From: Candidatus Aminicenantes bacterium
GTDB taxonomy: Bacteria > Acidobacteriota > Aminicenantia > UBA2199
Direction: 5' to 3'
Length of the DNA: 52,816 bases
Assembly (NCBI GenBank): GCA_026393795.1
Contig: JAPKZL010000223.1
Location: 1 to 52,816, forward strand
Shown: piece by piece, positions 17,284 through 22,735 of the stretch
Layout: each line of letters opens with the position of its first letter
Position numbering within the stretch: position 1 is the stretch's first letter
Position numbers and translations under genes: made by a program
The notes under the pieces: generated by a model
What the model saw: only the letters and a program-made list of their open reading frames with translations
Told to the model about the DNA's origin: nothing
Database searches by the model: none

Positions 17284-18153
17284 TCAATCTGCAAACCAGG
17301 ACCCTTCATAAAAATCCTCAATAAAAAAGGAATAGTTGGCATAGGGAGGCACTTCAGCAATATCCTCTTTGGAATTGACCAGATAAACCTTGTATCGTTC
17401 AATACCATCAAAATTTATTGGATTGCCCACATGATCATTTTTTATCCAAACAGCAAAATACTCAAACCTGGCGAAGTGGTTGGATCCTATTTCGGATTTC
17501 TTGCTGCCGATCATACTAATTTTTTTGCTGATTCTATAGGCGGCAGATATTTTCCCCGCTGACAATGGAAACCCCTTTTCGTTAACGTAATAACTGTCAT
17601 AAAATGGATCAAAGCATACCCACCGGTTCATAGAAGGTAAAAATACTTCGGACACTTCATGATTTCTGATTGTGACATATCTTGCCTTATATCCAAAACT
17701 TTGCATAGCCTGAACAAAAACATAGCAGTATTGGGCACAAAATCCACCGGTCTCACCATCGCGGATTCGTTTTAAAATTTCCATGGCATTGATGGGGGGA
17801 TATGGGCTTGGTTTCCCCGGCTCCCATTGGCTTCTCACCCAGTGCATCAGTTTTACGGCGATATCGAAATCAGTTTTACAGCCAAAAATCACAGAATCTA
17901 GATGTTCACCTTTCCTGAATTCCCCTAATGCTTCGACGGAGTCATAAGAATAAACAAAACGGCACCTATTTTTTGGTTGCTTGGTGAAAGTGGGAACAAC
18001 GATCGGTTTTTCTCGTTTTCCGCTCGCCAACACACTGACTGGTTTTATATCGGCATAGTTGGATATTTGACCAGCCAAGTAAGAGCAATAGGAAACAAGC
18101 CCGATAAACACAAGTGCGACAATAAACTTCAATGAAAATTTCAGTTTAAACAT
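17284..18153 (-). CDS. Membrane-anchored transglutaminase-like protein
   Basis: A 289-residue protein with one N-terminal membrane helix (SLKFIVALVFIGLVSYCSYL) and a periplasmic papain-like transglutaminase core. The likely triad is C139 in GGFCAQYC, H165 in RNHEVSEVF and D182 in CFDPFYDSYY. It could act as a protease, amidase or transglutaminase; substrate unknown. The start at 18153 has GGAG 7 bp upstream; the longer frame lacks a signal. The gene is clearly more AT-rich than the SPFH operon and stands alone on the minus strand beside the tRNA-His fragment and tandem repeats, suggesting horizontal origin. Confidence 0.8.
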   Translation of the reverse strand: MFKLKFSLKFIVALVFIGLVSYCSYLAGQISNYADIKPVSVLASGKREKPIVVPTFTKQPKNRCRFVYSYDSVEALGEFRKGEHLDSVIFGCKTDFDIAVKLMHWVRSQWEPGKPSPYPPINAMEILKRIRDGETGGFCAQYCYVFVQAMQSFGYKARYVTIRNHEVSEVFLPSMNRWVCFDPFYDSYYVNEKGFPLSAGKISAAYRISKKISMIGSKKSEIGSNHFARFEYFAVWIKNDHVGNPINFDGIERYKVYLVNSKEDIAEVPPYANYSFFIEDFYEGSWFAD

Positions 18154-18337
18154 TTTTGTCTCCACATCATGCATTATATGACTATTTTGAAGAATATTGT
18201 GATTTACAAGTTTCAATTCCCAATATTGTTGCTCGGAATATGCCGCACGTAAATCAGCATCCAATAAATTGCTCGGGAGAAAAAAGCCAGCCACATTCCG
18301 GCAAGCATTCTCTCAAACTTAGCACGGGGAAATGGTC

Positions 18338-18400
18338 GGAAAGGCAGGCAGGAACTGGGGTGAGTGACGGGATGTGAACCCGCAGCGATCGGATCTACAG
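18338..18400 (-). repeat. Displaced 3' half of tRNA-His (att-like copy)
   Basis: This 63-bp segment matches 20295-20357 with only 5 mismatches at a constant offset of 1957 bp. It contains the tRNA-His 3' half from the anticodon loop through the T arm, acceptor strand and CCA, plus about 18 bp of 3' flank. Homology ends in the anticodon loop, a common crossover point for tyrosine integrases. No 5' half exists here, so no tRNA is made. The tandem hairpin repeats begin within its last 10 bp. Confidence 0.8.
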
Positions 18401-18650
18401 CACAAACTATCCTGACACGCAGTGTACGGATCTAGTTTGTCTGTAACGCCGGATTTACAGCACAAACTATCCGGACACGCAGTGTACGGATCTAGTTTGT
18501 CTGTAACGCCGGATTTACAGCACAAACTATCCAGACACGCAGTGTACGGATCTAGTTTGTCTGTAACGCCGGATTTACAGCACAAACTATCCAGACACGC
18601 AGTGTACGGATCTAGTTTGTCTGTAACGCCGGATTTAGTTTGTCTGTAAC
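18391..18650. repeat. Four tandem 60-bp palindromic repeats plus a 20-bp partial unit
   Basis: Units lie at 18391-18450, 18451-18510, 18511-18570 and 18571-18630, followed by a partial copy of the right arm at 18631-18650. Copies differ only at unit position 5 (c/t) and 33 (t/g/a/a). Each unit folds as a hairpin: TTACAG-c-ACAAACTA-TCC pairs with GGA-tc-TAGTTTGT-CTGTAA (17 pairs), and the loop itself contains ACACgcaGTGT. The near identity implies recent amplification. There is no unique spacer between units, so it is not CRISPR. Confidence 0.9.
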
Positions 18651-18834
18651 GAAGGGCGATGAGTGAATCCAGCAACTTGTCCCGCCGTTACAGTCCCGCT
18701 TAGGATATTTCAAAACGCTGTATTATCAAGCCTGTACAGCGTCTTAGGCACATATGCCTATCTATTCACGGATGGAATCGGTTAAAATTTAAGCACACTT
18801 TAGTACACACAAAAACGACCGAATCAATATTTTT
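18651..18834. other. Noncoding stretch between tandem repeats and the LolA-like gene
   Basis: This AT-richer DNA has no credible open frame. Two short inverted words are visible (GTTACAG near 18687 echoing the repeat unit, and ACGCTGTATT/TGTACAGCGT around 18715-18745), but no tRNA, terminator or known element is recognisable. Confidence 0.4.
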
Positions 18835-20124
18835 TCAGAGCAGTGAATTCAGCACGTGCGCCATGATCTGTTTTTGCCGGGAATAGTTGCCTACAAAAAT
18901 TTTTTTCACCACTCCGGAGTGATCGATGATCACCCAAAAGGGCGGGGAGATGCAGTTGAAATGGAAAGCCGATCCCACCGATCCGTGAAAATCAATAGCC
19001 ACAGGAATATTCATTCCCATCTTACGTATAGCGGTTGCGGTCTCCTCACGCGTCGATTTCATGCTGATTCCAAGAAAAACAACGGGCCTCTTCGAGAATT
19101 CAGCAACGAGTTTGCCAAGAGTCTGGAGGTGCTTCCCGATGTTATACGAACGATCGAAGTTTTTTCCGTTAAAAATAAAGAAAACGGCTGCTCGTCCTTT
19201 TATGTCCGCCAAATTGTATTCATCTCCCCGATTCATTCCCGGAAGCGCGATGCCCGGCATCGCTTTGCCTTCCATGAACTCTTCAGGCTCCGGTCCTTTC
19301 TCGTGGATAGGAAAGGAATCAAACAGATTGAACGTTTCCACAGCGGCGGGAGGGGGGATAAAACGGAAGGCCCCGGGGGGAATCGGCTGATTGATGCGGA
19401 TGTCATTATGAAAATATTCATAAACAGTCTCGTGTTTAAGGGCATTCCCTCCCATTTTGATGTTTTGGATTTTCTTCTCCTTCACATGGTGGATCAGGAA
19501 CGTTTTGGAATCGATCCACAAGTTGACCAACCACTCATCGTCTTCAACTTTTCTTTCCAGAACGATATGCAGGAGATTTCCCGAATGAGTTTCCTTTTCA
19601 TTGGCGAACGCCGCGACCGGGTAGTTATCCAGGTTCTTTTGCGCTGTTTCCGGATCAAAAAGCATGGGAATGACAAAACCGTTTTTCATGCTCGTATACT
19701 GTGCGTCGAACATAAAATCGTCGGAATCAGCGATTTCTTTCAGCGTTTTCGGCGCCTCGTCATTGGTGAACTTGTTAAACATGGGCATATATTCCCAGAT
19801 CCTTTTCCCGTCACACACCAGAGACGTGCCCGCAATAGAAAACTCTCCCGACTGCCAAAAACGGAGGCGGTTGGGTCTGGCAATGCAGATGTCGATGACA
19901 TTCCCGACGGCTCCGCCGACATTGATGATTTTCGGACCCTGGTATTTTGAGCTGATCTGGACTTTGAGCTGCTCCTGATACGTCTTCAGGTTCCCGTACA
20001 TGCGTATACACTTCTCCATGATTTTTCTGGCGGCAGGGTCATTCCGCAAAGGTGTGCTCCTGATCATATGAGCAAGGAGGGCAAGAAAAACAATACCCAT
20101 AAGTGCTTTCTTTAAACCTGACAT
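18835..20124 (-). CDS. LolA/DUF2092-like protein fused to a cysteine-less redoxin-like domain
   Basis: A 429-residue exported protein starting MSGLKKALMGIVFLALLAHM (membrane/signal helix). Residues of about 30-260 resemble LolA/DUF2092-type lipid-carrier folds (ARKIMEKCIRMYGNLKTYQE, RPNRLRFWQSG, NLWIDSKTFLIHHV). A C-terminal part from about 280 has the AhpC/TSA/TlpA layout (PGMNRGDEYNLADIKGRAAV, PVAIDFHGSVGSAFHF, PPFWVIIDHSGVV). At the place of the catalytic FWASWCPPC-type site it reads FIFNGKNFDRSYN, with no cysteine, so peroxidase or thioredoxin chemistry is unlikely. GGAGGAG precedes the chosen ATG. It is the only gene between the two tRNA-His repeats. Confidence 0.75.
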   Translation of the reverse strand: MSGLKKALMGIVFLALLAHMIRSTPLRNDPAARKIMEKCIRMYGNLKTYQEQLKVQISSKYQGPKIINVGGAVGNVIDICIARPNRLRFWQSGEFSIAGTSLVCDGKRIWEYMPMFNKFTNDEAPKTLKEIADSDDFMFDAQYTSMKNGFVIPMLFDPETAQKNLDNYPVAAFANEKETHSGNLLHIVLERKVEDDEWLVNLWIDSKTFLIHHVKEKKIQNIKMGGNALKHETVYEYFHNDIRINQPIPPGAFRFIPPPAAVETFNLFDSFPIHEKGPEPEEFMEGKAMPGIALPGMNRGDEYNLADIKGRAAVFFIFNGKNFDRSYNIGKHLQTLGKLVAEFSKRPVVFLGISMKSTREETATAIRKMGMNIPVAIDFHGSVGSAFHFNCISPPFWVIIDHSGVVKKIFVGNYSRQKQIMAHVLNSLL

Positions 20125-20294
20125 TTTTCTCTCCTCCTGAAAAAGCATTATATGCACAAAGGGGAAAATGGTCAAAAGAGGGATTAAGGAAACGGGGCCA
20201 GTCGCTGGCTGTCCCATAGCGGTTCATTTCGGGCAAATTTCTGTCAGCACAAAATAGGACACACTCTATCGGATTCGGGCAGGGTAAAATGACT

Positions 20295-20357
20295 GGAAAC
20301 GCAGGTGGGAACTGGGGTGAGTGACGGGATTTGAACCCGCAGCGATCGGATCCACAG
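20295..20357 (-). repeat. Att-like copy inside the intact tRNA-His
   Basis: This is the partner of the 63-bp repeat at 18338-18400, in the same orientation (58 of 63 positions identical). It covers the tRNA-His 3' half from the anticodon loop and about 18 bp of 3' flanking DNA. Together the copies bound a 1.96-kb segment, as expected for an element integrated into the 3' end of the tRNA gene and reconstituting it. Confidence 0.75.
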
Positions 20358-20388
20358 TCCGATACTCTACCATTGAGCTACACTCACC
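20313..20388 (-). tRNA. tRNA-His (GTG anticodon)
   Basis: The minus strand gives a complete cloverleaf: acceptor GTGAGTG paired with CACTCAC, D arm GCTC/GAGT-type, anticodon stem-loop TCGGA-CTGTGGA-TCCGA with anticodon GTG, and T arm GCGGG-TTCAAAT-CCCGT. An extra G at position -1 (20388) faces C73, the hallmark of tRNA-His, and CCA is encoded (20315-20313). A strong promoter lies 12-40 bp upstream. Its 3' half is duplicated at 18338-18400. Confidence 0.95.
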
Positions 20389-22631: not shown

Positions 22632-22735
22632 GGGCGGATTATAGCACACTTCAACCGTGCCAAACTCATCCCCCACCCCCCTCAGGTGGCAGACAAACCA
22701 AATCCGTCCACTTCGTGGCCAGATTGTTTGTGCTG

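Follow-up and report, generated by a model that had tools for sequence, protein, structure and literature searches.

Genes and features at the tRNA-His locus

The stretch of DNA analysed here (52,816 nt, referred to as the window, whose coordinates are used throughout) is a contig of a 3.15-Mb draft genome of Candidatus Aminicenantes, and carries a tRNA-His gene whose 3′ part occurs a second time further downstream (Table 1). Position-by-position comparison of 18338-18400 with 20295-20357 confirmed a 63-bp direct repeat with five mismatches at an offset of 1957, as an earlier sequence-only reading had described it, and in extended form the repeat matches at 86% over 79 nt (18322-18400 versus 20279-20357). 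The homology reaches ∼35–55 bp beyond the CCA, into a flank of the genus type. These two copies were the sole tRNA-His matches in a whole-genome search, and the intact copy looks like the only tRNA-His gene of the genome. The 3′ fragment lies downstream of the intact gene and in the same direction, which is the arrangement of tRNA and fragment in the Islander definition. The outer copy had been described as having no 5′ half: it indeed contains no complete tRNA, but tRNA homology resumes at ACAGTCC (18690-18696), on the far side of a tandem array.

Between the repeats we find one protein gene and the array (60 bp × 4.1, 18390-18637), and no recombinase or integrase is encoded there. Domain searches identified the gene as a fusion of DUF2092, which we take to be the LolA-like domain of the sequence-only reading, with an AhpC/TSA-redoxin domain, so that its account of a LolA-like/redoxin-like gene without an accompanying recombinase holds. 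An AGGAGG-type ribosome site precedes the ATG at 20124. The G/C content of the gene is 47.6%, compared to 58–61% in its neighbours; no relatives of the redoxin protein were detected at E≤1e-20 in the 141 other genomes of the class, and none was found in plasmids.

Table 1. Positions of the features at the tRNA-His locus in the window.
Feature	Position	Strand	Basis or remark
Transglutaminase-like gene outside the outer copy, 40% G/C	17284-18153	-	Domain search, G/C content
Outer repeat copy: tRNA 3′ part and flank, displaced or duplicated	18322-18400	-	Repeat comparison and whole-genome search
289-bp insertion with hairpin array, flanked by the 4-bp repeat ACAG (18397-18400, 18690-18693)	18401-18689	-	Not present at the corresponding G014 junction
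Leftover 5′ end of the outer copy, GGACTGT when read as tRNA, severed by the hairpin array	18690-18696	-	Collinear with the uninterrupted G014 copy once 18401-18689 is omitted
Outer arm adjoining the outer copy	18697-18800		Common to G014 at 84–90%
Cargo gene: DUF2092 and AhpC/TSA-redoxin protein, 429 aa	18835-20124	-	Domain search; unique in the class
Inner arm: tRNA 3′ flank, 65 bp at ∼80% identity to G014	20207-20312	-	Flank comparison with G014
Inner repeat copy: tRNA-His from anticodon loop to CCA, and ∼34 bp of 3′ flank	20279-20357	-	Repeat comparison
Intact tRNA-His(GTG)	20313-20387	-	ARAGORN; Rfam tRNA, 70 bits; sole complete copy found genome-wide

The locus in relatives of the same genus

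The gene order around the locus is conserved in the genus as PilZ-like, Band 7, RHH/Zn-ribbon, a variable gap, tRNA-His, DUF362, nitroreductase, tRNA-Arg and UvrA-like (the PilZ and RHH/Zn-ribbon names were assigned by reading the sequence). The distance from the Band 7 gene to tRNA-His is 543 bp in G006, ∼630 bp in G007, ∼725 bp in G002 and G005 and 0.9–3.1 kb in others; it amounts to 3.5 kb in the source genome and ∼9 kb in G014. The gap thus varies among relatives both in size and in the genes it holds, which marks the region 3′ of tRNA-His as a hotspot. The transglutaminase-like gene beyond the outer copy is probably a further acquisition at this hotspot. Its best DNA match lies in G030, a member of another family of the class, and a distant transglutaminase-like gene occupies the same gap in opposite orientation in G003, G004 and G013.

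A second tRNA-His 3′ fragment was found in two of the 16 genomes of the genus, the source genome and G014. The other eleven in which tRNA-His was located carry a single tRNA-His and no fragment, with 0.5–3.1 kb to the conserved Band 7 gene where the contig covers it; such unoccupied sites, a test that we added to the Islander definition, include that of the closest relative, G012, whose gap holds a methyltransferase gene. The check for empty sites that the sequence-only reading had suggested thus turned out positive, and its view of an inserted segment survives, the segment not being shared among all relatives. In a protein tree of four neighbouring genes the source genome is sister to G012 and apart from G014, which stands at the base of the clade holding the source genome (support 0.83).

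A related unit with different cargo in G014

The second carrier, G014 (isolate QR_Bin.23, record JADFDP010000007), harbors a related unit at the same site, in which other cargo is combined with the same outer arm. Its tRNA-His 3′ fragment lies 1.8 kb downstream of its own tRNA-His, and the gene in between belongs to the beta-lactamase family (PF00144) instead of being a redoxin; no integrase is encoded in this unit either. The protein shares 77% amino acid identity with one from another family of the class, and its homologue in G136 has neither a tRNA nor the arm beside the gene. Judging from sequence composition and relatives, the redoxin cargo and the G014 cargo both look horizontally acquired.

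The outer arm of ∼110 bp is 84–90% identical between the source genome and G014 (90% over 87 bp), which exceeds the 60–75% identity at four-fold degenerate sites of neighbouring genes, and it is absent from the other 140 of the 142 class genomes searched. When the array is omitted, the outer ends of both carriers align unbroken across the junction of fragment and arm and agree at 145 of 175 aligned positions. Both carriers have the same fragment start point (GGACTGT) and the same outer arm, next to unrelated cargo.

The G014 fragment also differs in allele from the tRNA of its own genome. In the source genome and G012 the anticodon arm of tRNA-His reads GGA-CTGTGGA-TCC followed by GATCG, and in G014 and the clade of G013, G004, G005, G002, G015 and G008 it reads AGA-CTGTGGA-TCT followed by GACCG. 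The fragment of G014 is of the source-genome type (GGA..TCCGATCG), whereas its own tRNA is AGA..TCTGACCG. Either a transfer from a source-like lineage or an origin predating the allele change would fit this.

These alignments also bear on the position of a possible crossover. The end of the identity in the anticodon loop had been taken as the signature of a tyrosine integrase; it corresponds instead to the insertion site of the later hairpin array, and the alignment places the true boundary of the fragment in the 5′ strand of the anticodon stem. A crossover in the anticodon loop of G014 is ruled out, its own tRNA being host-type on both sides of the anticodon. Any crossover there would thus lie 3′ of the anticodon arm, and if site-specific recombination occurred in G014, it must have taken place in that part, for example in the T arm. 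The T arm is a recognised crossover position in tRNA genes (PMC4383910).

The array as part of a dispersed hairpin family

The insertion at 18401-18689 splits the outer fragment, which continues at ACAGTCC on its far side. The array had been counted as part of the element; the uninterrupted junction in G014 indicates that the block was inserted into the fragment later and lies outside the element proper. Hairpin copies end in CTG(T), which leaves two possible origins for the flanking ACAG, duplication of the target or the ends of the hairpins themselves.

The array units belong to a dispersed hairpin family of the form CAGACAAAYYA-RA-TCCGCC...GGCGGA-TRRTTTGTG-CTG, whose core is a bulged palindrome of 41–47 nt that is often preceded by a CCCC-loop-GGGG mini-hairpin. 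With a pattern allowing two mismatches, a search of 60 genomes detected 39 copies in the source genome, 24 in G012, eight in G010, five in G006 and one each in G014, G009 and one distant genome, and none in the rest. Copies are frequently nested in, or in tandem with, other hairpins. The stems covary, with 36 cells changed on both sides versus a mean of eight in shuffles, as in a REP-like bulged stem. REP/BIME-type repeats are short bulged palindromes with dozens of copies and a conserved stem, and by this general comparison the array resembles them. Unlike REP/BIME repeats, it has no REP-associated transposase beside the copies in the regions inspected (the genome has four Y1_Tnp genes, and the regions around three of them hold no copies of the hairpin), its units are nested with other hairpin families, and it has no match in Rfam.

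Hairpin sites in the source genome comprise 18401-18689 and 22688-22730 of the window, L002, L003 and L004, and about 39 genomic places altogether; as a finding made on the side, the family merits attention. At one further place, G000:C207 4204-4505 (L236), and in G012 (L256), the last 65–73 bp of a TPR-like gene, which run to its stop codon, recur on the far side of hairpins of this kind. Both copies look coding, and the source genome has one extra tandem hairpin unit compared to G012.

Search for a parent element

The sequence-only reading had suggested a search for larger integrase-carrying elements with the same repeat ends. Neither an integrase-bearing element with these ends nor an ICE or IME with the outer arm was detected in the 142 class genomes, viral contigs and phage records, where G014 gave the sole match to the arm outside the source genome, and no tRNA was seen beside the PF00589 loci examined. 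A truncated ORF of the tyrosine-recombinase family lies at a contig end of the source genome (G000:C20 1-579, L232), close to two small ORFs resembling a HicA/HicB pair, and similar domain matches occur in G006, G007 and G009.

Origin of the segment

We consider it moderately probable that the segment is a small CIME-like cargo island without an integrase at the 3′ end of the single tRNA-His, decayed and probably immobile now. Recombination between the chromosomal tRNA-His and an element that carried the tRNA-His 3′ part and a short flank would have produced the present arrangement, in which a complete tRNA stands at one end and the 3′ fragment with the outer arm of the element at the other. 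Because neither unit encodes an integrase, the recombinase may have been lost since or may have acted in trans, or entry may have relied on homologous recombination between tRNA copies. REP-like hairpins would later have entered the outer fragment, an event visible in the G014 comparison, and been amplified to the 60-bp tandem array. In favour of an island are the geometry, with the 3′ fragment and the intact tRNA pointing the same way, the patchy spread over two of 16 genomes that are not sisters, an arm identity above that of four-fold sites, the combination of unrelated cargo with one fragment start, the mismatch between the G014 fragment allele and the G014 tRNA, and the foreign-looking cargo in both carriers. 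On the other side, the main weak points are the failure of the searches to bring up a relative with an integrase and the genus-type flank of 35–55 bp in the repeat, which reaches further past the CCA than most integrase cores do and would equally result from a duplication. Besides, both carriers have inner flanks similar to those of fragment-free relatives in our flank comparison, the G014 tRNA is wholly host-type, and the same picture could arise if cargo was exchanged within a shared hotspot through homologous recombination. The suggestion of a non-autonomous satellite or a fossil thus fares well on the fragment-free sites, the second carrier, the lineage-specific cargo and the missing recombinase, but no larger integrase-bearing element supports it. 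A more specific version, in which one-gene cassettes lacking an integrase and with a fixed outer arm are inserted or exchanged at tRNA-His by a trans-acting recombinase, so that arm and fragment form a portable landing site in Aminicenantes, is unlikely in our view.

A modest chance falls to a relic of segmental duplication, in which the tRNA-His 3′ part and its flank were duplicated in an ancestor by replication slippage or illegitimate recombination, and the interval became a neutral landing place for acquired genes without a site-specific recombinase ever being involved. The genus-type 3′ flank included in the repeat would fit this, as would the lack of an integrase anywhere near and the similar duplication of a gene 3′ end beside hairpins elsewhere in the source genome and its closest relative, and the basal position of G014 would allow a single ancestral origin with several losses. 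Such losses would, however, be needed in at least three lineages, that of G012 among them, and the conservation of the arm beyond neutral sites and the foreign allele of the G014 fragment further weaken the tandem duplication that the sequence-only reading had named as its alternative. We also considered an old, vertically inherited island whose cargo was swapped by homologous recombination through conserved flanks, in which case the present unit would be a replacement island rather than an integrated element in its own right: conserved ends around unrelated middles in the source genome and G014 and the varying gene content of the locus would agree with it, but all intermediate relatives lack the fragment and any trace of the outer arm, and we regard it as improbable. 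Least credible is an origin from the hairpins, as a mobile element that moved or made the repeat and had the tRNA fragment as its target duplication. The array abuts the fragment, and the duplicated 3′ end of the TPR-like gene also flanks hairpins; yet the array interrupts the fragment instead of bounding it, and G014 has fragment and arm without hairpins at the junction, for which reason we reject the hairpins as makers of the repeat, barring a scarless loss of hairpins in G014.

Comparison with known systems

Read as a decayed cargo island, the locus documents a small example at tRNA-His in an uncultured phylum whose mobile elements are little mapped, together with a second one with different cargo. 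It also illustrates a pitfall: what made a tRNA repeat stop in the anticodon loop was a later repeat insertion and not an integrase. The kind of island is already known, decayed att-flanked elements without an integrase being well documented (PMC7563491, PMC3146451).

The tDNA islands of the Islander database require an integrase gene between tRNA and fragment (PMC4383910). Our segment shares with them the intact tRNA and the downstream 3′ fragment in the same orientation, but has no tyrosine integrase gene inside the interval, the integrase-family genes of the genome sitting on other contigs. In Dehalococcoides, 15 genomic islands at ssrA lack an integration module (PMC3146451). Like the present segment, these stretch from an RNA gene to a copy of the gene's 3′ end, have no integrase and carry strain-specific cargo; unlike them, the segment uses tRNA-His and not tmRNA, is a single small unit instead of part of long tandem arrays and has no known autonomous relatives here. 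Cis-mobilizable elements (CIMEs) are decayed att-flanked elements without an integrase and have a classical size of 1.2–13 kb (PMC7563491). The segment differs from them in that no parent ICE or IME was found and that one flank copy is disrupted by repeats. It resembles them in its size, which falls within this range, in the att-type direct repeats that enclose it and correspond to the target gene 3′ end, and in a content of cargo only, free of integrase, relaxase, conjugation and other recombination or transfer genes.
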